Shown here one piece after another: positions 7,945 through 52,745 of a stretch of DNA of 64,000 nt (position 1 is the first letter of the stretch; every line of letters starts with the position of its first letter). The DNA comes from Nannobrachium achirus (taxonomy: Eukaryota; Chordata; Actinopteri; Myctophiformes; Myctophidae). Position numbers and translations under genes: made by a program. The stretch is taken from positions 56,830,838-56,894,837 of the forward strand of contig OY997652.1 in NCBI GenBank assembly GCA_963921795.1. Reading direction: 5' to 3'. Under the pieces are notes generated by a model that was not told the DNA's origin, did not search any database, and worked only from the letters and a program-made list of their open reading frames with translations.

Positions 7945-8345
7945 CAAGTTTAATGTAAGGTAAAGGACTCTTAATCCAGTCATTTGACGCCACCCACAAG
8001 TCTGTACGACAAACGGTTCACAAGATAAAGGGTCACTTCCTGTTTGGGGAGGGGCACTTCCTGTTTGGCGAAATAGGCCCCAATTAAGGTTAAGGACTCT
8101 TAAACAAGTCATATGACACCACCCACGCATCTGTACGACAAATGGTTCATGCGATGAAGAGGCACTTCCTGTTTGGCGAAGGGCACTTCCTGTTTGGTGA
8201 AGGAAACGCCAATTAAGGTTAAGGACTCTTAATCAAGTCATATGACGCCACCCACACGTCTGTACGACAAACGGTTCATGATATATAGAGGCACTTCCTG
8301 TTTGGCGAAGAGCACTTCCTGTTACAGAGGGGGCGGGGCTTAGTC
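7945..8345. repeat. ~123 bp satellite array, forward orientation
   Basis: Units carry 'cacttcctgtttggcgaag', 'caattaaggttaaggactct', 'aatcaagtcatatgac' and 'ctgtacgacaaacggttcat'. About three units occur here. The same array is at 9655-9830 and 51817-52745, and reversed at 9955-10800. Confidence 0.9.
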
Positions 8346-9954: not shown

Positions 9955-10800
9955 TGTAACAGGAAGTGCCCTTCGCCAAACAGGAAGTGCCTCTACATCT
10001 CAGGAACCGTTTGTCGTACAGATGCGTGGGTGGCGTTCATATGACTTGATTAAGAGTCATTAACCTTAATTGGGGCCTATTTCGCCAAACAGGAAGTGCC
10101 CCTCACCAAACAGGAAGTGACCCTTTATCTCATGAACCGTTTGTCGTAGAGACTCATGGGTGTTGTCATATGACTTGATTAAGAGTCCTTAACCTTAATT
10201 GGGGCCTATTTCGCCAAACAGTAAGTGCCCCTCACCAAACAGGAAGTGACCTTTTATCTCATGAACCGTTTGTCGTACAGACTCGTGGGTGGCGTCAAAT
10301 GACTTGATTAACAGTCCTTAACTTTAATTGGGGCCTATTTCGCCAAAGAGGAAGTGCCCCTCACCAAACAGGAAGTGACCCTATATCTGATGAACCGTTT
10401 GTCGTACAGATACGTGGGTGGCATCAAATGACTTGATTAAGAGTCCTTAACCTTAATTGGGGCCTATTTCGCCAAACAGGAAGTGCCCCTCACCAAACAG
10501 GAAGTGACCCTATATCTCATGAATCGTTTGTCGTACAGCCGCGTGGGTGGTGCATTATGACTCGATTAAGAGTCCTTAACCTTAATTGGGGCCTATTTCG
10601 CCAAACAGGAAGTGCCCCTCACCAAACAGGAAGTGACCCTATATCTCATCAACCATTTGTCATACAGATGCGTGGGTGGTGTCATATGACTTGATTAAGA
10701 GTCCTTAACCTTAATTGATGCTTCCTTCGCCAAACAGGAAGTGCCCTTCGCCAAACAGGAAGTGCCTCTATATCTCGTGAACCGTTAGTCGTACAGTCGA
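9955..10800. repeat. ~123 bp satellite array, reverse orientation
   Basis: Six to seven consecutive units read 'ttcgccaaacaggaagtgcc', 'ctcatgaaccgtttgtcgta', 'atgacttgattaagagtcct' and 'taaccttaattggggcctat'. The units differ from each other by a few percent, so the array is old enough to have diverged but still clearly tandem. Confidence 0.92.
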
Positions 10801-12492: not shown

Positions 12493-12537
12493 TTACAGGA
12501 AGCAGCTCAGTAGGAGCTCTTCGTTTAAGCCCTTAGG
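12493..12537 (-). pseudogene. Penelope-like element ORF, C-terminal end (severed)
   Basis: Reading leftward from 12537, the codons give a PK-G-L-N-E-E start, a leucine-rich tail and a TAA stop at 12493-12495. This is the usual C-terminal style of vertebrate PLE proteins. It continues in frame from the main body at 26894 once the giant palindrome and one copy of its 6 bp duplication are removed. That makes 12538-26893 a single insertion event within coding sequence. Confidence 0.8.
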
Positions 12538-12760
12538 AGTAGTATATTAAGCATAGATTGTGTTCTAAAAATAGATTTTCTAAATTTAGAATGTTATTAA
12601 TAGAATACTATTAATAGCATTTCTAAAATTAGAATGCTATAAATATAATGCTATAAATATAATGTTATTATTAGCATGTTATTATTAGCATGTTATAATT
12701 AGATTGTTATTAATAAGATCTAAAATTAGTCATCTGAAATTAGTCATCTAAAAATAATAA
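12538..12760. repeat. AT-rich subterminal repeats of the palindrome
   Basis: Short repeats such as 'gctataaatataat' (twice), 'gttattattagcat' (twice) and 'aaattagtcatct' (twice) follow the terminus. They are mirrored at 26660-26893. Subterminal repeats of this kind can be transposase or replication-protein binding sites; that role is inference. Confidence 0.65.
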
Positions 12761-12830
12761 TGGTCAGCTGTTAGAGGGTCAGAGTTAGGGGGGATGACAG
12801 CTGGGGTTAGAGAGGGGGTGTTGTGTGTTT

Positions 12831-12861
<31 letters not shown>

Positions 12862-14883
12862 GTCCGTGGAGAGGTGTCAATTTTCACGGTTAAAGGTGTT
12901 ATCAGGGGCCATCACTACCTTTTCAGAGTATCCTTATAGTTTTCATTATTTGACAGCACAATCATCAGTGTATTTTGGATTCATGTCTAAGATAATTAAA
13001 GATAAGATAATTGCATTATACCGGTACTTTATACTTAGTTTGCTATTTTGTCTCCCCTACACCATACCTCTTTGCCAAAAATAACCAATTTACAAGCTCA
13101 CAACGTCTCGCAGCGCGGGATATTATGTGCATGTAGATCTGCTATTTTTGGGACTATACAGTTCTCAGAATATGGACACTAGGGTTTTTTAAACTCCAAG
13201 GACTCCTAGTTGAGAGAGATGTAGCAGGGACCCCCTCAACCTTTTCAGAGATTTCCTTATAGTTTTCATTGTTTGACAGTCAGATGACAGATTGACAGAT
13301 ATTTAACCACTTGAGCCATCATTATCTAAGATAATTGCATTATACCGGTACTTTATGCCTAGTTTGCTATTTTGTCTCCCCTACACCAAACCTCTTTGCC
13401 GAAAATAACCAATTTACAAGCTCACACACATTATGCGCTTGTAGATCTGCTAATTCTGTAGGGTTGCGGTAGGTTTTCAGGTGTTTTACTGACTCTTGCA
13501 TTGCATTTGGGATTTGCCTACTTTTAAAGCAGTGAAGGGAGCTGAGAGGCCCTTCTTGAACTTAATTCAAGTGACAGATACACAGAAAACGGATTCTGTG
13601 ATTTTGCTTTATAAATATTTGTGTTTATATTTAAATCTTTAGGGGCATACCATGTGATATACCTGCACAGTCTTTGATGCAGGTCTTTTACTGCCCTTTT
13701 TCTGAATTATGAGTGAGAAATACAATGAAAAGAATGCAAGCAACGATGTACCTACAGCGCTGGTATACGCAGTGTACATGTAGTAAGCATATGCAAACAG
13801 TGTATGCTTTATCGTCATAACATCTTGTGGATGAATCTACTAGTGAACCCTAATCTGGTAGTTATAGGTGGTACTGTATTAGGCAAAACCTCATAAAGGG
13901 TAGAACTGGTACTGTACGTAAAAAACTCTGACATGAAATTCATGATCAATCCCTAACATTATACAGTGGTTATTACTAACAACACTCATAAGTTGAGTTA
14001 TCACACTCTTACATACAATTTTTTTCCCTAATTATATATTTCAATAGATGACACATCATGAAATGGTACCTAAGTTACACAAAATGTCAAATCTCACACA
14101 GTAGGTAATGCCTAATGCCAATGCAGTGAGTTAGAGAAGGATTTTCACCCTAACCATACCATGTACGGTATAGGGGAGCATGGTAATTAGACAACTTATT
14201 GTTTTCTTTCTTGGGTGTTCTGTAGGCTAAGTACGTTTCTAATGAACATGCTAATACTCACACCATGTGCGTTATATTTACAGTAAAACATGGACACATA
14301 AGCTGACTATTTAGTGTTTACATTATTCTACTTCACTGATATAATAGCATGGATGTATGGAAGCACAGCTATACAATGCTACTAAATAAAACCAGTGCTA
14401 CTGTACCTTTCTATTCTCCTCTCATTACATATTTGTTGTCCCACTACAATTAAAAAAGCTCACCCAGTCACCCTCATACACATCTACAAAACCCAGTACA
14501 TCAACAAAACATCAACACTCCTGCATATTACAGCATAACAAAAGCTAAAACACATGACAAAATGCAAAACATGAAACCAAAAAGTCACAATATTACTAAC
14601 AATGTTACTAACAATGTGTTCAATAGACTAGTGTCAATAAACTAATAGTTTCAACCCTTAATCCTAAAACATCCAATAAGACAGCAGCTATATGGCTATG
14701 TTATATTCAGTCTGAATAGTAGTTTGACTGATTGAATGAAAACATTTTGCATAGGAAAGAGTTCACTGGTACAAGAAAGGAGGATAAAGGAGATCCTAGT
14801 AAGCTTTTCGGCTTGTTCTCACACGAAAACCTTTATGTATCTTACAGTATATAACATTGAATGACAGACGGATAAAATACTAG

Positions 14884-14955
14884 TTCTCATACCAGGAGTT
14901 GAACCGGGGCTGCCGTGGTGAAAACCATGAATCCTAATCGTTAGACCATAGGGAA
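14884..14955 (-). tRNA. tRNA-Glu(UUC)-like sequence, probably degenerate (left arm)
   Basis: The minus strand gives a 72-base tRNA-Glu pattern with D-arm 'ggtctaacgattagga', loop TTTTCAC with anticodon TTC, and B-box 'ggttcaactcc'. The acceptor stem has two mismatches, the T stem has one, and the anticodon stem keeps only about two of five pairs. It is therefore probably a pseudogene or tRNA-derived fragment. The mirror copy is at 21757-21828. Confidence 0.55.
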
Positions 14956-16599
14956 TGCAATTCCTACAAACTGTATAAGTGTACAGTACCAACTACATAA
15001 CACAGCTATACAACATCAACATGACTGCATAATATCAAGTCAACTACTGTATATTCAGCACAAATATACATCACCAACAGAAAGCATCACCATCCTCACT
15101 ACACATTGCTAGTAGATCCACACAAAAACATAAAAAACACAACTTGTCCATTCACAGGATGACAAAATACACAATATGTTCTAATAATAAAGTGTAGATT
15201 AAAGTAGACTACATTTGCTCAACAACCTTTTTAATATAAATTAACTGTGTAATTAACTGAATGCTTTTTTGCATAGGTGATAGGAAAGTATGTTTTCTAG
15301 TGTCAGAAAGTTCATGAATGGGCTACACTGAAGGGCTGGCAGCCAAACCGTTTCGTACCAGGCATGTCCATATTAAGTGTTTTACACAGTATGCAATCAT
15401 ATTGTTCAGAACTGGTACTGAATGTGAAATTGTATTAATATTACAAAATGAAAGGGTAGAAGAGTGTAGGTCTGCTATTTTCACTGATTGGATTACACGA
15501 ACATGTATAGGCCTAAATGGGGGAGTGTACTTATTTCTAGGAGTCATGCACATGATAGCTGTGAAATATGGGGTTTTAAGCGTATGGGTACACTAATACA
15601 GGTCCATTGTGACATCATTTGGTAAAAATGAGGGTCATCTCTTTCACTAGATTGACGAACAACATACAAAGGGCTTATTAAATGTATTTATTATCATGCA
15701 CTTTCCTCATTCCGCCACCATCGTTTCCTTTATCTAATTTTCAACACAGATATTAGGAGCTTTTTATATAATCACTAGCAAAGGTCTGATGTATTGTTGT
15801 AAGATATAGGGATGGCTACATATTATGTTGGTCCCTTGGAGGGTTTTGGCTATTGTGACCATATGTTGGACCCAATTGTACACATCGCAAGAGTACAGAG
15901 CCAGGGGTTTAGCTATTGTTTTATGTGCAAATCTAAGCTGAAGGGTCAGATTGTGGTTTGTTGTTGTTAGTTCTTATTAGTAAGCACATATTATAATTGT
16001 TTGTACCTGGGTTTTAGATTAGAATAATTGTTAGTGTAATGAGGCCTATGTCAGGCGAAACTGTAAATTCATCATTATACAGCACTTTTTTTTCTGGAAA
16101 TATGTGTCAGATGTACTCATGGAGCACTAAGTTGACAGGTATAGTAGGGGGTAATAGCTACATCTGTTGGGTGAACCACTAACAAAGATCATGGGTATTT
16201 CTTGTAAGGGGGTATTTTATCACAAACTAAATTGAAATGTCATCATATGTCCCATACATCCCCAATATTTTACCCATCATACACATTTGATACGGTAAAT
16301 TTTCAGTATTGTGTATGTCTAAGATGACTATTTAGTGTGTTTTAAAAACAATTATTCATTTTCACTTGTAGAATAGCCCACGATATTCTGAAATGTGGGG
16401 TATTATGGTCTTTGAATCAACACATACGTGTCCCCAAGCTCCTCAAGTCCCCAATAGTTTGCTGATCAGCCAAGCTTTATCACAGGACACATAATGTGTT
16501 ATAGTTTTGAATACTACAACTGACATAGATATGAGGTATGAAGGATTCACTATTCAATGCTACCTGTCTATTTTCATCTCACTAGTGTTTCTCCCCATA

Positions 16600-17490
16600 C
16601 AATTTAAATAAAACATTGCCCTCATACACTTCAACATAACTACACAACCCCGTACAGCATCAACAAAACATAAAACTATGCCACATAACAAAAATATTAC
16701 AAAAATAACACCACTAAGAATTTCAATCACCACTAAAACACACAAAACATAAAACTATGCAACATAACAGAAAATGTTTACAAAAATAACACCACTAAGA
16801 ATTACAATCACCACTAAAACGCATAAAACATAAAACTTTGCCACATAACAGAACAATTTTACAAAAATTACATCACTGAGAATTCCAACGAGCACAAAAC
16901 CAAGCAAAAACAGCAAATATTAAGCACATTAACAAAACATCAAATAGTATAAAATAACATCAATAAGAATTACAACTGACACACAAACAAACAAAAAACA
17001 GCAAATATTACAAAAATAACATCACTAAGAGATGTTTTATCACCACTAAAATGCACAAAACATAAAACTTTGTAACATAACAAAAATAATTAAAACATAA
17101 CACCACTAAGAATTTCAACCACCACAAAAACGCACAAAACATAAACCTTTGCAACATAACAGAAAATATTACAAAATAACCTCACTAAGAATGTTCAACT
17201 AGCACCTAAAACTTTGTAACATAACGAAAATATTTATAAAATAACACCACTAAGAATTTCAACCACCACTAAAACGCACAAAACACAAAACGTTGCCACA
17301 TAACAATAATATTATAAAACATAACACCACTAAGAATTTCAACCACCACTAAAACGCACAAAACACAAAACTTTGCAACATAACAGAGAATATTACAAAA
17401 TAACCTAACTAAGAATGTTCAACTAGCACCTAAAACTTTGTAACATAACAAAAATATTTATAAAATAACACCACTAAGAAATTTAAACTA
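16600..17490. repeat. A-rich minisatellite, ~75-80 bp units (left arm)
   Basis: About ten imperfect units contain 'caccactaagaatttcaa', 'ccaccactaaaacgcacaaa' and 'aactttgcaacataacaga'. The mirrored array is at 19205-20110. Sequence composition is strongly strand-biased (A and C on this strand in the left arm). Confidence 0.88.
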
Positions 17491-18164
17491 AAAACAGACA
17501 AAAACATCACGAGTTATCTAGATTACCGTAGGTTCCGCAACTATCATCACAGAGCCAGTAGCTTATGTTACTCATATTGCTAAGGGATATTGTTAATCTC
17601 TAGATTTGTAGATAAAACATATCTCTAGGGTTAGTGGTGGACTAATAATAATAATAATAATAATCTCTCTCAATCTCTCTCCAATACAATTTCATAATTT
17701 CTCTATTTTTATCCCTCTATAGTCATATCAACTAGCAAGCATATCTAATAGGGTAGTGTTCAGTACATCATTTCATCAAAACATGGTAACCTATTTGGCA
17801 ATAACTTTATGATTATGGTCCTATACAAATCTAGACATTTTGTAATTAACCCATATTGTAATTCTGAAGGTCACTAATATTGTACAATAGGTGCTAAATC
17901 AAAATAGTATATGTCTATTAAAACAAATATTTATATGTTTTTTTTTCAGATCTGCACATGGACTATTGTGGTAACCCTAGTGTTGAGAATGATGACAAGG
18001 GGGTCAGATAATATGTAGATGAGTTGAATTGAAGATATTACAGTGATACACAATTTTACTTTTTATTGCTGCCTTACAATTTTCAAAATACGTATATGAA
18101 TATGGAGAATGAATCTATGAGGAATCCATGATACTGATAATATTTGACTTTTGTAGTTTATGCT

Positions 18165-18553
18165 GTTAGGTGCACTGTGTTACCCAAGTCAGAAACATAA
18201 CATAGATCTTACAAAAACAGTACACTCTAATTATGCCTGCCAACACCAATCATTTCAGATACACTAATCCAATACTATAATTATGAGGATGGTTAATCTC
18301 TAAATGCCAGGTCTGCTTACTGACCAGTGATTTTCCTATGCAAATGTCCAATAAAGTATCCCTATTCAATCAATCTAAGGCTAAGCTAATATTAGTATTA
18401 GTTTCTTGTTCATATAGGGAGTTTTGAATCAACATGCTGGGTAACCAGAAACGATAATAAAGAAAATATCGTAATAAACCAACTTTGAAAAAAATACATT
18501 ATTGACAAACAATAGTGTATTGACATACAAAGTTGGTTTATTACGACTTTTGT
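18165..18553. other. Central spacer of the giant palindrome with its own small hairpin
   Basis: 389 bp are present once only, between the two arms. Near the right edge, 'cgtaataaaccaactttg' (about 18470-18487) and its complement (about 18528-18545) form a separate 18 bp stem around a 40 bp loop. No open frame of interest is present. Confidence 0.8.
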
Positions 18554-19204
18554 AGCATAAACTACAAAAGTCAAATATTATCAGTATCATGGATTCCTCA
18601 TAGATTCATTCTCCATATTCATATACGTATTTTGAAAATTGTAAGGCAGCAATAAAAAGTAAAATTGTGTATCACTGTAATATCTTCAATTCAACTCATC
18701 TACATATTATCTGACCCCCTTTTCATCATTCTCAACACTAGGGTTACCACAATAGTCCATGTGCAGATCTGAAAAAAAAAAACATATAAATATTTGTTTT
18801 AATAGACATATACTATTTTGATTTAGCACCTATTGTACAATATTAGTGACCTTCAGAATTACAATATGGGTTAATTACAAAATGTCTAGATTTGTATAGG
18901 ACCATAATCATAAAGTTATTGCCAAATAGGTTACCATGTTTTGATGAAATGATGTACTGAACACTACCCTATTAGATATGCTTGCTAGTTGATATGACTA
19001 TAGAGGGATAAAAATAGAGAAATTATGAAATTGTATTGGAGAGAGATTGAGAGAGATTATTATTATTAGTCCACCACTAACCCTAGAGATATGTTTTATC
19101 TACAAATCTAGAGATTAACAATATCCCTTAGCAATATGAGTAACATAAGCTACTGGCTCTGTGATGATAGTTGCGGAACCTACGGTAATCTAGATAACTC
19201 GTGA

Positions 19205-20110
19205 TGTTTTTGTCTGTTTTTAGTTTAAATTTCTTAGTGGTGTTATTTTATAAATATTTTTGTTATGTTACAAAGTTTTAGGTGCTAGTTGAACATTCTT
19301 AGTTAGGTTATTTTGTAATATTCTCTGTTATGTTGCAAAGTTTTGTGTTTTGTGCGTTTTAGTGGTGGTTGAAATTCTTAGTGGTGTTATGTTTTATAAT
19401 ATTATTGTTATGTGGCAAAGTTTTGTGTTTTGTGCGTTTTAGTGGTGGTTGAAATTCTTAGTGGTGTTATTTTATAAATATTTTCGTTATGTTACAAAGT
19501 TTTAGGTGTTAGTTGAACATTCTTAGTGAGGTTATTTTGTAATATTTTCTGTTATGTTGCAAAGGTTTATGTTTTGTGCGTTTTTGTGGTGGTTGAAATT
19601 CTTAGTGGTGTTATGTTTTAAATATTTTTGTTATGTTACAAAGTTTTATGTTTTGTGCATTTTAGTGGTGATAAAACATCTCTTAGTGATGTTATTTTTG
19701 TAATATTTGCTGTTTTTTGTTTGTTTGTGTGTCAGTTGTAATTCTTAGTGATGTTATTTTATACTATTTGATGTTTTGTTAATGTGCTTAATATTTGCTG
19801 TTTTTGCTTGGTTTTGTGCTCGTTGGAATTCTCAGTGATGTAATTTTTGTAAAATTGTTCTGTTATGTGGCAAAGTTTTATGTTTTATGCGTTTTAGTGG
19901 TGATTGTAATTCTTAGTGGTGTTATTTTTGTAAACATTTTCTGTTATGTTGCATAGTTTTATGTTTTGTGTGTTTTAGTGGTGATTGAAATTCTTAGTGG
20001 TGTTATTTTTGTAATATTTTTGTTATGTGGCATAGTTTTATGTTTTGTTGATGCTGTACGGGGTTGTGTAGTTATGTTGAAGTGTATGAGGGCAATGTTT
20101 TATTTAAATT
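19205..20110. repeat. Minisatellite, ~75-80 bp units (right arm)
   Basis: Mirror image of the 16600-17490 array, here rich in T and G, with 'gttatgttgcaaagtttt' and 'tagtggtggttgaaattctt' as recurring phrases. Confidence 0.88.
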
Positions 20111-21756
20111 GTATGGGGAGAAACACTAGTGAGATGAAAATAGACAGGTAGCATTGAATAGTGAATCCTTCATACCTCATATCTATGTCAGTTGTAGTAT
20201 TCAAAACTATAACACATTATGTGTCCTGTGATAAAGCTTGGCTGATCAGCAAACTATTGGGGACTTGAGGAGCTTGGGGACACGTATGTGTTGATTCAAA
20301 GACCATAATACCCCACATTTCAGAATATCGTGGGCTATTCTACAAGTGAAAATGAATAATTGTTTTTAAAACACACTAAATAGTCATCTTAGACATACAC
20401 AATACTGAAAATTTACCGTATCAAATGTGTATGATGGGTAAAATATTGGGGATGTATGGGACATATGATGACATTTCAATTTAGTTTGTCATAAAATACC
20501 CCCTTACAAGAAATACCCATGATCTTTGTTAGTGGTTCACCCAACAGATGTAGCTATTACCCCCTACTATACCTGTCAACTTAGTGCTCCATGAGTACAT
20601 CTGACACATATTTCCAGAAAAAAAAGTGCTGTATAATGATGAATTTACAGTTTCGCCTGACATAGGCCTCATTACACTAACAATTATTCTAATCTAAAAC
20701 CCAGGTACAAACAATTATAATATGTGCTTACTAATAAGAACTAACAACAACAAACCACAATCTGACCCTTCAGCTTAGATTTGCACATAAAACAATAGCT
20801 AAACCCCTGGCTCTGTACTCTTGCGATGTGTACAAGGTGGGTCCAACATATGGTCACAATAGCCAAAACCCTCCAAGGGACCAAAATAATATGTAGCCAT
20901 CCCTATATCTTACAACAATACATCAGACCTTTGCTAGTGATTATATAAAAAGCTCCTAATATCTGTGTTGAAAATTAGATAAAGGAAACGATGGTGGCGG
21001 AATGAGGAAAGTGCATGATAATAAATACATTTAATAAGCCCTTTGTATGTTGTTCGTCAATCTAGTGAAAGAGATGACCCTCCTTTTTACCAAATGATGT
21101 CACAATGGACCTGTATTAGTGTACCCATACCCTTAAAACCCCATATTTCACAGCTATCATGTGCATGACTCCTAGAAATAAGTACACTCCCCCATTTAGG
21201 CCTATACATGTTTGTGTAATCCAATCAGTGAAAATAGCAGACCTACACTCTTCTACCCTTTCATTTTGTAATATTAATACAATTTCACATTCAGTACCAG
21301 TTCTGAACAATATGATTGCATACTGTGTAAAACACTTAATATGGACATGCCTGGTACGAAACGGTTTGGCTGCCAGCCCCTCAGTGTAGCCCATTCATGA
21401 ACTTTCTGACACTAGAAAACATACTTTCCTATCACCTATGCAAAAAAGCATTCAGTTAATTACACAGTTAATTTATATTAAAAAGGTTGTTGAGCAAATG
21501 TAGTCTACTTTAATCTACACTTTATTATTAGAACATATTGTGTATTTTGTCATCCTGTGAATGGACAAGTTGTGTTTTTTATGTTTTTGTGTGGATCTAC
21601 TAGCAATGTGTAGTGAGGATGGTGATGCTTTCTGTTGGTGATGTATATTTGTGCTGAATATACAGTAGTTGACTTGATATTATGCAGGCATGTTGATGTT
21701 GTATAGCTGTGTTATGTAGTTGGTACTGTACACTTATACAGTTTGTAGGAATTGCA

Positions 21757-21828
21757 TCCCCTATGGTCTAACGATTAGGATTCATGGTTTTCACCACGGC
21801 AGCCCCGGTTCAACTCCTGGTATGAGAA
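21757..21828 (+). tRNA. tRNA-Glu(UUC)-like sequence, probably degenerate (right arm)
   Basis: Mirror copy of 14884-14955, with the first acceptor bases TCCC in place of TTCC, one pair better than the left copy. The acceptor still has two mismatches and the anticodon stem remains poor. Box A and box B promoter elements are recognisable, so transcription by RNA polymerase III is conceivable; function as a charged tRNA is doubtful. Confidence 0.55.
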
Positions 21829-22948
21829 CTAGTATTGTATCCGTCTGTCATTCAATGTTATATACTGTAAGATACATAAAGGTTTTCGTGTGAGAACAAG
21901 CCGAAAAGCTTACTAGGATCTCCTTTATCCTCCTTTCTTGTACCAGTGAACTCTTTCCTATGCAAAATGTTTTCATTCAATCAGTCAAACTACTATTCAG
22001 ACTGAATATAACATAGCCATATAGCTGCTGTCTTATTGGATGTTTTAGGATTAAGGGTTGAAACTATTAGTTTATTGATACTAGTCTATTGAACACATTG
22101 TTAGTAACATTGTTAGTAATATTGTGACTTTTTGGTTTCATGTTTTGCATTTTTTTCATGTGTTTTAGCTTTTGGTATGCTGTAATATGCAGGAGTGTTG
22201 ATGTTTTGTTGATGTACTGGGTTTTGTAGATGTGTATGAGGGTGACTGGGTGAGCTTTTTTAATTGTAGTGGGACAACAAATATGTAATGAGAGGAGAAT
22301 AGAAAGGTACAGTAGCACTGGTTTTATTTAGTAGCATTGTATAGCTGTGCTTCCATACATCCATGCTATTATATCAGTGAAGTAGAATAATGTAAACACT
22401 AAATAGTCAGCTTGTGTGTCCATTTTTTACTGTAAATATAACGCACATGGTGTGAGTATTAGCATGTTCATTAGAAACGTACTTAGCCTACAGAACACCC
22501 AAGAAAGAAAACAATAAGTTGTCTAATTACCATGCTCCCCTATACCGTACATGGTATGGTTAGGGAGAAAATCCTTCTCTAACTCATTGCATTGGCATTA
22601 GGCATTACCTACTGTGTGAGATTTGACATTTTGTGTAACTTAGGTACCATTTCATGATGTGTCATCTATTGAAATATATAATTAGGGAAAAAAATTGTAT
22701 GTAAGAGTGTGATAACTCAACTTATGAGTGTTGTTAGTAATAACCACTGTATAATGTTAGGGATTGATCATGAATTTCATGTCAGAGTTTTTTACGTACA
22801 GTACCAGTTCTACCCTTTATGAGGTTTTGCCTAATACAGTACCACCTATAACTACCAGATTAGGGTTCACTAGTAGATTCATCCACAAGATGTTATGACG
22901 ATAAAGCATACACTGTTTGCATATGCTTACTACATGTACACTGCGTAT

Positions 22949-25364
22949 GGGTCAGTGACGTGACGCCCCAAAAAATGTGTTTTTAAAAAAACTTTAAATT
23001 GCAGGCATAAAAGTTATTTACTTTTGTTCTACTCACTCTCAACCTTATGGAAATACATTTTGTTTTTAGATATTTTATTGGAATCAGACTTTATTCAGCA
23101 GTTTGTTGTACTTGTGCCTAAAATCGTCATATGGTGTGAACATGAAAATAATTGTTCATAAAATGAAAATGGAGTACATCTTTCTTAAGTTACTCACTTT
23201 ATCAAAGTCCTTTATCATAACTAACCAGTGATCCACTATAGTTTTTTGAAAATTAATTATATCTGTATATTTTTTTCATAATCGACACCCTGTGTGAGGC
23301 CCATGTTCATGATCTTACAACATATTTTAAATGTATTCTGTCAAAACTTTCTCTAAAATTACACAAATATTTGTGACTCTTCCTGATAATATTCTCTATG
23401 TAATCCATAAACATTTTTTTGGTTTAATCATTAATAAAGGTATGATTTTTCACTATTTGGAATGTCACACCAAATGATTTAGTGTCACACCGTATGATCA
23501 TATCTTCATTTGTCAAAGCAAACTGTGTTTTAACCTACCTATTAGTGAGTACTGAACTTTACTGATTGATTAAACAATTACCCAGGATAACATGGCCTTA
23601 ATATTTCTGAACAGGATATTATTGTAGGGCTTTAACATGGGATAAGAAAGAATTGTAGTAGTAGATGGATGATGAGGATGTGCACAGGAATGCTACGCAC
23701 ACCTAAGTCTTCTGCCGGCCCACGGCAGAAGGATCCTAAAGAGACAATAAGGCGCATAGCCACACTTGGAGCCAAGGCAACATTTTATTAACATTAATTA
23801 GTGGAAACAGAACTCAGCATTCAGGTAAATTGCTTTTTTCCGAAGTCTCCTGAACTTGAACACAGCATTTTGTGTTGAACAAATGTAATTAGGAATCATG
23901 ACATTACACCACATCTCCACTAGCTAAAGAGTGCTGGGTTGCGCAACTCCGAAAATAGCTGATCTACAAGCTCTCGCAGCACAACGTGTTGAGAGCTTGT
24001 AGATCAGCTATTTTCGCTAGTTTTGTCTCGGGTCCTACCTTAACACTGTCCACTGTCCAGTCCAGTGAGTGAAAGTACAAAAGTATTAGATCAGATTAGA
24101 TTATACATTTAGACTGTATTGTACATCAGCCAGTCGTATTTGGTGAGGGTAGCAAACCGGCTGCCTTGTTGCGGTTCTGCTATGCCACAGACAACCTCCT
24201 GCTCTTCGTAGAAAATGCAGTCTCGCCCCTTTGGCTCCTCTCTCCTTGCTGGGTCATTGTTTAGTTTCTCCCTGTACTTTCTCGTTCTCTCAGCACTTGT
24301 CATTTTCCAGCTGACAAAAGAAAATGGAATGTATAGTTTAAGACAAAGAGAAAATATTGTTTAGATTGAAACAATATGTTAAGGTTTCTGTGAAGGGGTT
24401 TCTGCTCTGTCTGATGAATTTGAAGTATCACTGAATGAAGCTAAATTACATTTTATGTAAAAATGTTTAAAACAAATGTTTAAATGTACAAAAGAAACAT
24501 GGAACTTTGTTATTTATTGTTATATCTGTAGTTAAATACAGTATAAATCATATGGTGTGACAATCAAGTCATATGGCGTGACAAGCAGACATGTCACACC
24601 ATTATGATTAAGTGTCACACCATATTACGTTTTCTGCATTTAGGTTTACCTTGAGGCTACTATGTACACATTAGCATGCTAACAGCATGCTAGCTATAAC
24701 AAAGCAACCTAGATCTACATGGAAATATGACCAAAACTTCAAATAACTTAAGCTTTTTTTAATGAAAAGGTGTCACACCAACAGACATCCAAAGTGGTGA
24801 GTTTGTCAAAGTTTCAACAAGATGGCATTTCATGAAAATGTTAAAATCATAACTCACCTCAGACACCTGTCATGCAGTTGTGCTGGGAGTGCTGAATAGC
24901 CTTACAGAAGAAGGACCTCTCTAGCCAATAGGTGTCCAAATAATTGCCTGTTTAATTTGTCCAAACTAGTGTCACACCAAATGATTTTGGTTTGGGGGAC
25001 AAAATGTTTTTGATCAGAAATGACTGAAAACATTATGCTTTGACTTTGAAAAGATATAGGCTCACAAATAGACATTTTTTTTTAGCCTAAATTCATTTTC
25101 AAATGATTTTTAGCAATTCTTTTTCTTAGTTTTATTCAAGTTCCCACTTTGAGAAACAAGGTCAGGACAGTCACACCATATGAGTTTTGCCATGTTTGGT
25201 TGAAAATTCTGAAGAAATGAGGAATGAAATGTTTTAATCTTGAGTAAGTTCACATAAAGCTTAATGTCCTGCACAATATTCAGAAGGTTTTTGACAAATA
25301 TATTTTTTATTTATACATGTTTGACACCGAGGACAGCGAAAACGTTACGTCACGTCACCCACCC
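22949..25364. mobile_element. 2.4 kb DNA transposon relic inserted in the right arm only
   Basis: The left arm keeps the uninterrupted site (complement of 13751-13775). In the right arm it is split, with GTAT duplicated at 22945-22948 and 25365-25368. The ends are GGGTCAGTGACGTGACG and the complement of GGGTGGGTGACGTGACG, 15 of 17 matching. The interior carries the dispersed motif CATATGGTGTGAC in several copies, an internal hairpin (23955-24016) and a short coding remnant (24109-24303). The superfamily is undetermined. Confidence 0.8.
24109..24303 (-). pseudogene. Short transposon-associated coding remnant (KYREKL motif)
   Basis: A 64-codon frame begins MTSAERTRKYREKL and is rich in basic residues. 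Its opening resembles the N-terminus of uncharacterised transposon-linked proteins common in fish genomes; I know the style but not the function. It lies inside the 22949-25364 element and is probably the stump of its protein. No catalytic residues can be named. Confidence 0.35.
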
Positions 25365-25950
25365 GTATACCAGCGCTGTAGGTACATTGTTGCTTGCATT
25401 CTTCTCATTGTATTTCTCACTCATAATTCAGAAAAAGGGCAGTAAAAGACCTGCATCAAAGACTGTGCAGGTATATCACATGGTATGCCCCTAAAAATTT
25501 AAATATAAACACAAATATTTATAAAGCAAAATCACAGAATCCGTTTTCTGTGTATCTGTCACTTGAATTAAGTTCAAGAAGGGCCTCTGCAAGAGTGCAA
25601 TGCAAGATGCAATGCAAGAGTCAGTAAAACACCTGAAAACCTACCGCAACCCTACAGAATTATAGTATTTATTATATTATATTATACTGATCTACAAGCG
25701 CATAATGTGTGTGAGCTTGTAAATTGGTTATTTTCGGCAAAGAGGTTTGGTGTAGGGGAGACAAAATAGCAAACTAAGTATAAAGTACCGGTATAATGCA
25801 ATTATCTTTGATAATGATGGCTCAAGTGGTTAAATATCTGTCAATCTGTCATCTGACTGTCAAACAATGAAAACTATAAGGAAATCTCTGAAAAGGTTGA
25901 GGGGGTCCCTGCTACATCTCTCTCAACTAGGAGTCCTTGGAGTTTAAAAA

Positions 25951-26002
25951 ATCACACCCGTGTGAACTGAGCGGTGGTTTATCTCTCCCCCCCCCCCCCC
26001 CC

Positions 26003-26067
<65 letters not shown>

Positions 26068-26229
26068 TGTGTGTGTGCCTGGCCTGGCCTGAAAACAGCG
26101 CCCCTCCCTTAACATGTGTGGTCATAAAAGGTACTACACCACTTGAGGCTACATACAGACATACAAACAAACAAACATACATACCTACACACACGGCCAC
26201 GCTATGGAGACGGTGTGACCACCGCTCAA
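25951..26229. repeat. Right-arm-only segment with poly-C and (GT)n tract
   Basis: The left arm reads straight through 'ttttttaaactccaagg' at 13183-13200, whereas the right arm contains about 280 extra bases: a C-run (25987-26004), (GT)n (26005-26080) and a short unique tail with (ACAAACAT)-like repeats. It is either an insertion in the right arm or a deletion in the left. The open frames over it are repeat artefacts. Confidence 0.7.
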
Positions 26230-26555
26230 AAACCCTAGTGTCCATATTCTGAGAACTGTATAGTCCCAAAAATAGCAGATCTACATGCACATAATATCCC
26301 GCGCTGCGAGACGTTGTGAGCTTGTAAATTGGTTATTTTTGGCAAAGAGGTATGGTGTAGGGGAGACAAAATAGCAAACTAAGTATAAAGTACCGGTATA
26401 ATGCAATTATCTTATCTTTAATTATCTTAGACATGAATCCAAAATACACTGATGATTGTGCTGTCAAATAATGAAAACTATAAGGATACTCTGAAAAGGT
26501 AGTGATGGCCCCTGATAACACCTTTAACCGTGAAAATTGACACCTCTCCATGGAC

Positions 26556-26586
<31 letters not shown>

Positions 26587-26893
26587 AAACACACAACCCC
26601 CCCTCTCTAACCCCAGCTGTCATCCCCTCTAACTCTGACCCTCTAACAGCTGACCATTATTATTTTTAGATGACTAATTTCAGATGACTAATTTTAGATC
26701 TTATTAATAACAATCTAATTATAACATGCTAATAATAACATGCTAATAATAACATTATATTTATAGCATTATATTTATAGCATTATATTTATAGCATTCT
26801 AATTTTAGAAATGCTATTAATAGTATTCTATTAATAACATTCTAAATTTAGAAAATCTATTTTTAGAACACAATCTATGCTTAATATACTACT

Positions 26894-28618
26894 CTTAGGC
26901 TGTTCAGTTTGGAGTGTGTGTATCCAATATGCCTCTCGCTGCAACAAAGCTTTATCTCGATCACCACCTCTTTTTAGTGGCTTAACCACTTCGATCCCCA
27001 TGAACCGCAGAGTGCAAACATCATGACCCACATTGTTAAAATGTCTGGCTACTGACGACTTTTCGTCTTTGTTTCGAATAGAACTTTTGAGTTCCGAGAA
27101 CCTGGTTTTGATTTCTCTGATCGTTTTGCCCACATAACACAGTCCACAATATGGACATTTTAGTAGATATACAACATGTTTGGTTTTACAGGAAATGCGG
27201 CCCTTGACCAAGTATTTTTTCCCAGAGTGTGGATGTAAAAATGACTCGCCTTTGATCATTGCATTACACTGTATACAGTTTTGACATGGGAAATTCCCTG
27301 AAGGTAACGTGGACAAAAAGTGTTTTGGGGGATTGTAGAGATCTGCTCTCACCAGTGTATCTCTCAAGTTCTTGGCCCTCTTATGGGCAAACACCGGCTT
27401 CTCTTTAAAGGCCTGGCCTATGCTAGGGTCACTCGCTAGAACATGCCAGTGTTTCTCAATGGCTTGTCTTATGTCTCTAGAGACAGGTGAAAAAGTTGTG
27501 GCGCACACGATTCTATTTGACTTACTGGCTCCATGTAGTTTTGGAGTCAACAGTTTTTTCCTATCCAGAGCTCTTGCTCTCTGTAGAGCATTAGACAGAA
27601 TATCTGGCCTGTAGCCTTTGACCTTGAACCTTGAGCATAAGTCAGCAGCCTGTTCCTCAAAAGTGTTTTCAGAACTACAAATTATTTTTATTCTCACCAA
27701 CTGGCTATATGGTAACCCTTTTTTAAGGGCTGGGGGGTGATAACTGGTGAAATCCAGAAAACTGTTACGATCTGTTTCTTTCCTGTATACTCTAGTATCC
27801 AGTGTTTCTGATTTTGTTATGACTACATCAAGGAAGGAAATTGACTGTTGACTGTGCTCCGAGGTAAATTTAATGGTAGGCATTCTGCTGTTTAGATAAG
27901 ACTTAAACTCTTGTAACTGTTCTAAGGACCCAGTGAAGATACAAAACACATTGTCTATGAACCTGTACCAACATCTTATCAGAGTAGAAAAAGGATTGTT
28001 ATTGTGCACAAAGTCTTCCTCAAATTTCCCCATAAACAAGTTTGCGTAGTTCGGCGAGCAGGGACTCCCCATACTGACCCCTTGACATTGTAGATAGTAA
28101 GAATTCTCAAATTTAAAATAATTCCTATTCAGAACCAGCTTCATGAGCTCTACCAGAAAGTCTGTAGGGGGAGTAGGGTTGTCCCTTTGGTTCAAATAAT
28201 ATGCTAAAGATAACAAGCTTTCATGGTTAGGTACATTAGTGTACAAAGCGGTTATGTCTAGACTGCAAAGAAAATCATCTGATTGGATATTCTCTATAGC
28301 ATCTACTTTATTTAAGAAATCAGTTGTGTCTTTTAAAAAAGAGGGGAGATGAGAAACTAAATCCTTGATGTGCACATCTATGTATTGAGATAAGGGTTCT
28401 GTCAATGACTGTATTCCTGCTACAATTGGCCTGCCAGGTACAGGTTCGACACAGGATTTATGGATCTTTGGCAAAGTATGGAAAACAGGTCTGATAGGAT
28501 GTTTCTGTAACATAAATTTGAACTCGTCTTGAGAAATAAATGCCTCATCCAGTGCTCCAGTTAAGAATACCTCTATTTCTTGTGAAAATTTCACAGTGGC
28601 ACGTAATAACTGCCGCAC
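26894..28618 (-). pseudogene. Penelope-like reverse transcriptase/GIY-YIG protein (5'-truncated, C-terminus severed)
   Basis: The open frame (595 codons from 28618 to 26831) has PLE reverse-transcriptase motifs in order. LPKIHKS lies near residues 49-55, PGRPIV at 61-66, an LDITALYTNVP block with the motif A aspartate at 121, QGVSMGSP...YANLFMG at 179-197, motif C as FIDN at 220-223, and FLDVVITK at 262-269. A CxxC region and a GIY-YIG endonuclease follow (VVYLL at 482, GLCYVGKT at 492-499, arginine-containing helix after). Motif C has Asn where PLEs usually have a second Asp, which would be expected to cripple polymerisation. Codons after about residue 575 come from the giant palindrome, not the PLE. 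The first few codons come from the flanking repeat, so the true N-terminus is missing. Confidence 0.88.
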
Positions 28619-28960
28619 GATTTACCATTCCGTGTTACCATGGCAACATAATTCGTAAAAAAACTACACGAAAAAACCCCCATTGACTTTGAATGGGGGC
28701 TCAGAAAAAAAAACAGAAACTTTGGCGCCACATTACTCTGCCATACATTTGCCTAGCAACGTCATTTAAACTTTAAAATGCACACACAGCTTTGGTCTTT
28801 TTCCGGCCAATAGGGATGAGCTGTAATTGATTAAGCCCCGCCCCCTCTGTATTCCTATCGGCCAGTTCACAGCATGGTACCGTCTTGAAACTTGGTGTCT
28901 GGACTTAAACGGCCAATAGGGACTTATTACTTAATCCCCTTTTTATGGGGACCAAAATCA
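28612..28960. repeat. Composite repeat block, continuation of 7760-11178
   Basis: Sequence resumes directly from the PLE target site with 'gccgcacgatttacc', the 'ggcgccacattactctg' module and the 'cccgccccctctgtattcct' module. Confidence 0.75.
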
Positions 28961-51816: not shown

Positions 51817-52745
51817 ATAGAGGCACTTCATGTTTGGCGAAGGGCACTTCATGTTTGGCGAAGGAAGCACCAATTAAGGTTAAGGACTCTAAATCAAGTC
51901 ATATGACACCACCCACGCATCTGTACGACAAACGGTTCATGAGATATAGAGGCAATTCCTGTTTGGAGAAGGGCACTTCCTGTTTGGCAAAGGAAGCACC
52001 AATTAAGGTTAAGGACTCTTAATCAAGCCATATGACACCACCCACGCGTCTGTACGACAAACGGTTCATGAGATATAGAGCCACTTCCTGTTTGGCGAAG
52101 GAAGCACCATTTAAGGTTAAGGACTTTTAATCAAGCCATATGACACCACCCACGCGTCTGTACGACAAACGGTTGATGAGATCTAGGGTCACTTCCTGTT
52201 TGGCGAGGGGCACTTCCTGTTTGGCCAAATAGGCCCCAATTAAGGTTAAGGGCTCTTAATCAAGTCATATGGCACCACCCACGCGTCTGTACGACAAACT
52301 GTTCATGAGATATAGGGTCACTTCCTGTTTGGTGAGGGGCACTTCCTGTTTGGCGAAATAGGCCCCAATCAAGGTTAAGGACTCTTAATCAAGTCATTTG
52401 ACGCCACCCACAAGTCTGTACGACAAACTGTTCATGAGATAAAGGGTTACTTCCTGTTTGGTGAGGGGCACTTCCTGTTTGGCAAAATAGGCCCCAATTA
52501 ATGTCAAGGACTCTTAATCAAGTCATTTGACGCCACCCACAAGTCTGTACGACAAACGGTTCATGAGATATAGGGTCACTTCCTGTTTGGCAAAAGGCAC
52601 TTCCTGTTTGGCGAAGGAAGCACCAATTAAGCTTAAGAACTCTTAATCAAGTCATATGACACCACCCACACGTCTGTACGACAAACGGTTCATGAGATGT
52701 AGAGGCACTTCCTGTTTGGCGAAGGGCACTTCCTGTTACAGAGGG
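51817..52745. repeat. ~123 bp satellite array, forward orientation
   Basis: About eight units with 'cacttcctgtttggcgaagg', 'agtcatatgacaccacccac' and 'ctgtacgacaaacggttcat'. Same family and orientation as 7945-8345. Confidence 0.92.

Follow-up and report, generated by a model that had tools for sequence, protein, structure and literature searches.

Mavericks (Polintons) are thought to be integrating viruses. Adenovirus-type viruses, whose replication is protein-primed, give rise to symmetric palindromic defective genomes in which one end is duplicated and two replication ends are kept, and elements of the Foldback/Galileo type have long, internally repetitive inverted repeats and a target duplication of their own. 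Galileo is assigned a transposase of P-element type in its description (PMC3573991), and Teratorn, a piggyBac-herpesvirus element of fish, is given in the excerpts of its reports as 41-182 kb in size, with a TTAA target, a piggyBac-like transposase and 18-bp inverted repeats (PMC6431247, PMC10175614). Intact vertebrate Mavericks, in the portions of the survey used here, measure 12.7-24.6 kb and are bounded by inverted repeats 46-1,447 bp long, with (AGT)2//(ACT)2 or (AG)3//(CT)3 ends and 6-bp duplications (Barreat and Katzourakis 2021, PMC8097293). Here we describe a giant palindrome in a 64,000-nucleotide stretch of Nannobrachium achirus DNA (the window, on contig C15 of a 1.66-Gb assembly), which probably belongs, as a copy without genes, to a family of non-autonomous Maverick derivatives. 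Such elements would be moved in trans and made anew through fold-back copying.

The palindromes of this family resemble vertebrate Mavericks, as the quoted portions of PMC8097293 portray them, in their (AGT)2//(ACT)2 ends, 6-bp duplications and overall size range, and a protein that some of them carry, with a CxGC..HPSQ..H motif (the motif protein), is a distant homologue of an open reading frame (ORF) beside the integrase of a Maverick locus, C5. They differ in their inverted repeats, for which the nine fully read elements give 5.5-7.6 kb of paired columns against the 46-1,447 bp of that source, and in a body that is palindromic and bears BIR, CARD and orphan genes, and in which no integrase, chromodomain or polymerase was found. 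Because the repeats fall outside the Maverick range and these enzymes were not found, the palindromes are not Mavericks proper; they look like non-autonomous derivatives. They have long repetitive inverted repeats in common with Foldback/Galileo, whose ends and target duplication are other than theirs (6 bp in the palindromes). Unlike adenovirus defective genomes, they sit integrated in the chromosomes in multiple copies, have existed long enough to form subfamilies and in many cases are furnished with genes of their own. Teratorn is likewise a giant mobile element of fish and is virus-derived, but by the same excerpts it differs in size, target, transposase and repeats. In the literature searched we came upon no parasite described as using Maverick ends, and neither non-autonomous nor nonautonomous Polinton or Maverick occurred as a phrase in the searched full texts, repeat databases and most subscription journals being outside that search.

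Structure of the window element

The original prediction, made from the letters of the window, had described a near-complete palindrome at 12538-26893 with complementary termini, CTTAGG on both sides and a 389-bp spacer, and all of these were found. Each end starts AGTAGTATATTAAGCATAG, so that the termini are (AGT)2//(ACT)2. The parts are as follows.

12532..12537, no strand: target site duplication CTTAGG, left copy, 6 bp
12538..18164, plus strand: left palindrome arm, 5,627 bp, starting with AGTAGT, the Maverick end motif
18165..18553, no strand: unpaired central spacer, 389 bp
18554..26893, minus strand: right palindrome arm, 8,340 bp, ending in ACTACT
22949..25368, no strand: transposon insertion, 2,420 bp, confined to the right arm; ends GGGT..ACCC, flanked by a 4-bp duplication (GTAT)
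25952..26232, no strand: 281 extra bp of the right arm, absent from the left
26894..26899, no strand: target site duplication CTTAGG, right copy, 6 bp

Arms of about 5.6 kb each had been claimed, which holds for the left one and fails for the right one, the latter being longer because of the 2,420-bp insertion and the 281 extra bp. Substitutions separate the two arms at 0.66% of 5,598 paired columns. The 2.4-kb DNA transposon is a later insertion, since it has its own ends and duplication and since related sequence (84-93%) forms a one-armed stretch of another palindrome, C15b (L016 4849-8034).

The absence of recognisable genes from the window copy was borne out within the tests made: of its 11 stop-to-stop ORFs of at least 70 amino acids, not one reached a Pfam cut-off, no transposase domain was present among them, and nine family or Maverick proteins gave no tblastn match to the element at E <= 0.001. 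The palindrome is inserted in a Penelope-like ORF (window 26834-28621, minus strand) that matches RVT and GIY-YIG. The accompanying claim that excision restores its frame proved weak, since the frame is 588 amino acids long with the flanks joined (14 of them past the junction) and 596 with the insertion present.

Copies elsewhere in the genome

The first 300 bases of the window element matched inverted pairs 7-21 kb apart in the assembly. In searches with the end sequence and with the BIR gene, which score the best candidates only, inverted pairs of the one or the other were obtained at 29 loci, the window included. Nine further loci were read in pieces, C249 was read later, and five more were read by their ends only. 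Ten of the 11 loci read inward (window and C249 included) are palindromes, comprising, besides these two, eight further loci with paired ends (C2a, C10a, C15b, C22, C269, C24, C15c and C10b). In the pieces fetched for the loci read by their ends, both ends were found for C21, C15:13.89M and C3, and the left end only for C4:68.25M and C2:0.54M.

In every element with both ends located (13/13) the flanking six bases match and AGTAGT stands at both ends. The duplications are CTTAGG, CCCCTC, AATAGT, CACTCT, CCCGCC, GGCATT, CACAGC, GAGAGG, GACGAG, CACACA, GGCTGC, ACCCAG and CGTGTA. The genome search proposed in the original prediction thus returned many palindromes with the same ends and 6-bp duplications, and the termini were seen on no element of another superfamily, though some matches were not opened. 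Element size is about 11.7-15.2 kb in the nine fully read elements with one-armed stretches subtracted, and 17.5 kb in C249. An origin from chance or simple repeats is ruled out by kilobase arms that were found again at many loci. Unequal AGT counts in C10a were considered as evidence of slippage and rejected, as this element has two AGT units per end and the third AGT at its left end is part of its duplication AATAGT. The Maverick/palindrome end occurs twice at G000:C209 60839-64037, on the same strand and 3 kb apart; this is not an inverted pair.

A palindrome-type terminus at a Maverick locus

A search of the genome with the polymerase B family PF03175 gave 58 matches spread over 25 loci, with 21 in open frames of >1,200 amino acids (the length of the C5 frame may be inflated by N), and none in 14 control genomes. 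The 24 loci besides C5 are presumed to be Mavericks. At C5 a palindrome-type terminus, reading AGTAGTATAATAGGCATAC, was found at 6310092 (piece L039). Inward from it we observed an ORF whose product resembles the motif protein of the palindromes (32% over 93 amino acids, E 8e-10, in a single comparison), then an rve integrase (7.6e-13), then a chromodomain (3e-8), and polymerase B lies 9 kb on, on the other strand. The best match of the first 300 bases from the C5 terminus was the palindrome at C4:63.76M, 89% over 279 bases and at both of its ends; C209 came next (84%), then C3 with 82-83% over about 310 bases, and further palindromes came after it. In an unrooted tree the C5 terminus sits among the palindrome ends. 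By these comparisons the palindromes and a coding Maverick locus of the same genome appear to share a terminus, so that the prediction of such an end on a coding Polinton was realised for the left end.

The enzymes of C5 were not found in the palindromes as far as these were searched. Its integrase and chromodomain gave no tblastn match in the window element or in 34 pieces (L009-L038, L041-L044), and none of the 58 PF03175 matches lies inside any palindrome found by the end or BIR searches. No Pfam match to capsid, ATPase or protease was obtained among the scanned palindrome ORFs, and the one tblastn query of this kind, a 104-amino-acid piece of what we take to be a minor capsid protein, had no match.

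Genes carried by relatives of the window element

Unlike the window copy, many of its relatives carry genes, namely those for a BIR protein, a multi-CARD protein, the motif protein and an orphan protein. The BIR protein has 293-295 amino acids; it matches Pfam BIR at 4e-4, slightly under the family cut-off, and its family profile matches NAIP structures at 4e-6. Its gene is present in both arms of C2a, C22, C24 and C15c, and in C15b too, where it is broken. C2a has part of the CARD gene and the motif-protein gene in both arms as well. Other genes stand in the loop between the arms: the 4.1-kb loop of C22 holds the orphan in a broken frame, a 536-amino-acid CARD protein (7.6e-12) and the CxGC..HPSQ..H.C motif protein, and the 1.2-kb loop of C15c holds the orphan only, its frame open. 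C10a, C269 and C10b gave no match to the BIR, CARD, orphan or motif proteins.

The BIR search of the genome returned 57 matches, which were sorted into 20 inverted pairs, 12 single copies (88-91% identity) and one further copy that belongs to the C4:68.25M palindrome. The single copies were considered as possible coding Mavericks, which is ruled out for the two of the 12 loci that were opened, C249 and C16, where inverted arms enclose a loop with the genes for the BIR and motif proteins (332 bases of arm per side were read at C16, and of the two loci ends were read for C249). Sequence bordering the C249 loop on both sides is about 73% like the central part of the window element, 281 of the 389 spacer bases among it; on the strength of this likeness the window copy may be of C249 type, after loss of the loop genes. 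The inverted BIR pairs at G000:C20 22.62M and C12 4.18M are only 71% identical to the query and perhaps stand for a branch of the family that is older or separate.

Twenty-four relatives of the BIR protein were found in the protein database, the four named ones being from Dallia and Channa, which by themselves would point to a teleost host; the N-terminal part of one of them (P0021, Channa striata) is presumably herpesvirus terminase-like, which would be a further point in common with Teratorn. The scan of IMG/VR yielded no relative of the BIR protein, and the motif protein had no match in the protein database at E <= 0.001. Between elements the BIR gene shows 7-12 differences in the dN/dS comparison, too few to judge selection. 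The predicted structure of the orphan family has a mean pLDDT of 43; in this weak model each strand-rich part is succeeded by a long helix (A1/P0025-P0028), which somewhat resembles single-stranded-DNA-binding folds, a likeness too uncertain to build on.

Likeness of the arms within elements

Over the first 350 bp, the two ends of one element are 98.7% alike on average (12 elements), against a mean of 84.3% and a maximum of 96.9% for left ends of different elements (66 pairs). In the unrooted tree of 25 ends, the two ends of an element are sisters in 11 of 12 elements, with no resolved pairing for C15:13.89M. Substitutions between arms amount to 0.03-0.96% across 10 elements. Conversion in place would predict a gradient of divergence from end to centre, and no consistent gradient was noticed among these 10. 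Five of the nine elements read from end to end (the window element, C2a, C15b, C24 and C269) still hold one-armed insertions, which suggests that the arms of an integrated element are not evened out in situ. We infer that the arms are made alike during copying of the element and not in the chromosome.

The window arm is furthermore a mosaic of two subfamilies, and the pattern is identical in both arms.

12538..15195, plus strand: outer arm part, with pieces about 70-97% like the flanks of BIR palindromes, stopping beside the BIR frame start
16034..17486, plus strand: inner arm part, 80-86% like the palindromes C10a, C269 and C10b, which are rich in ~80-bp repeats

Proposed mechanism and alternative explanations

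Taking these observations together, we argue that a Maverick would provide a protein-primed polymerase and an integrase in trans, with the AGT repeats as the priming site. While strand-displacement copying is under way, a single strand could fold back on itself near the middle, or the polymerase could switch template, whereby one arm would be copied into the other and the palindrome re-made with each mobilised copy. The new copy would then integrate with a 6-bp duplication by means of the helper's integrase and decay independently in the chromosome. Trans-mobilisation and fold-back copying are both inferences from sequence. The original proposal of a non-autonomous, Polinton-derived form is supported in this respect, but the element is not the one-off defective genome then imagined; it is a gene-less member of a multi-copy family. 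Such a family of Maverick-ended palindromes would give a natural record of fold-back in protein-primed replication, would hint which terminal sequence suffices for copying and integration in trans, would be a sign that satellites in a vertebrate carry cell-death genes, and would account for some giant palindromes that annotators might discard as assembly errors.

Several observations weigh against this explanation. The tie between terminus and polymerase at C5 depends on a distance of 9 kb, the pieces read covering 4 kb and not the intervening stretch, and it concerns one of the 25 polymerase loci, among the best-scored candidates only. No second match was returned for the right end of C5, where the fetched piece is mostly N. 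The likeness of C5 to the palindromes consists of about 300 terminal bases and one distant protein match; the second-best match of its end is C209 (84%), with its two same-strand copies, and with the window end it shares 82% over just 83 bases. No BIR, CARD or orphan gene was seen in the 4 kb read of the C5 Maverick, and direct descent of the palindromes from it is therefore only conjectural. The elements read were picked by paired ends, and C20, which has one end only, showed no inverted arm in the piece read. C269 shows the lowest likeness between its own ends, 87.7% over the first 350 bp. The traces expected of fold-back copying could equally stem from arm-to-arm conversion that precedes integration.

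It could be argued that the palindromes are a virus-like lineage of their own, not derived from Mavericks, with a hairpin-ended linear genome of ~7 kb that integrates as its replicative inverted dimer and merely uses Maverick-type ends. The genes that they have in common (BIR, multi-CARD, orphan), the BIR frames open in many copies, the database relatives which show that the BIR gene is not private to this genome, and loops that differ in content and size (0-4.1 kb) are all in keeping with this. However, the pieces read yielded no integrase, none of the polymerase matches falls within the listed palindromes, and the likeness to the end of the Maverick locus exceeds a 6-base motif, at 83-89% over about 280-317 bp (C3, C4:63.76M); we regard such a lineage as unlikely. 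Far less probable still is a Foldback-type cut-and-paste transposon of another superfamily with its transposase elsewhere, which would fit the long, internally repetitive inverted repeats and the lack of any enzyme found within the elements, but not AGTAGT ends with 6-bp duplications at unrelated targets in all 13 elements with both ends, nor a closely related end that runs into a Maverick-type integrase at C5. Giant palindromes are also an artefact of some long-read libraries, arising from mis-joins or inverted chimeric reads. That the present ones have this origin is hardly credible, as the 13 loci have different flanks yet matching 6-bp duplications, the arms carry one-armed insertions and private differences, and a non-palindromic, gene-bearing loop lies at the centre of C22, C15c, C249 and C16.

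Starting from trans-mobilised Maverick derivatives, a bolder proposal can be put forward tentatively, with somewhat less than even confidence: the palindromes might form a self-standing satellite lineage on Mavericks, whose linear fold-back genomes, equipped with BIR and multi-CARD genes, are re-palindromised in each round, copied by the helper and perhaps packaged. If true, this would be an animal counterpart of a satellite virus, kept as some thirty insertions in one genome, and such elements would bring anti-death and inflammasome-type genes of their own (BIR and multi-CARD).

Other features of the window

Outside the element, arrays of a ~129-bp tandem repeat were noticed in both orientations at window positions 7956-8323, 9958-10796 and 51817-52737.

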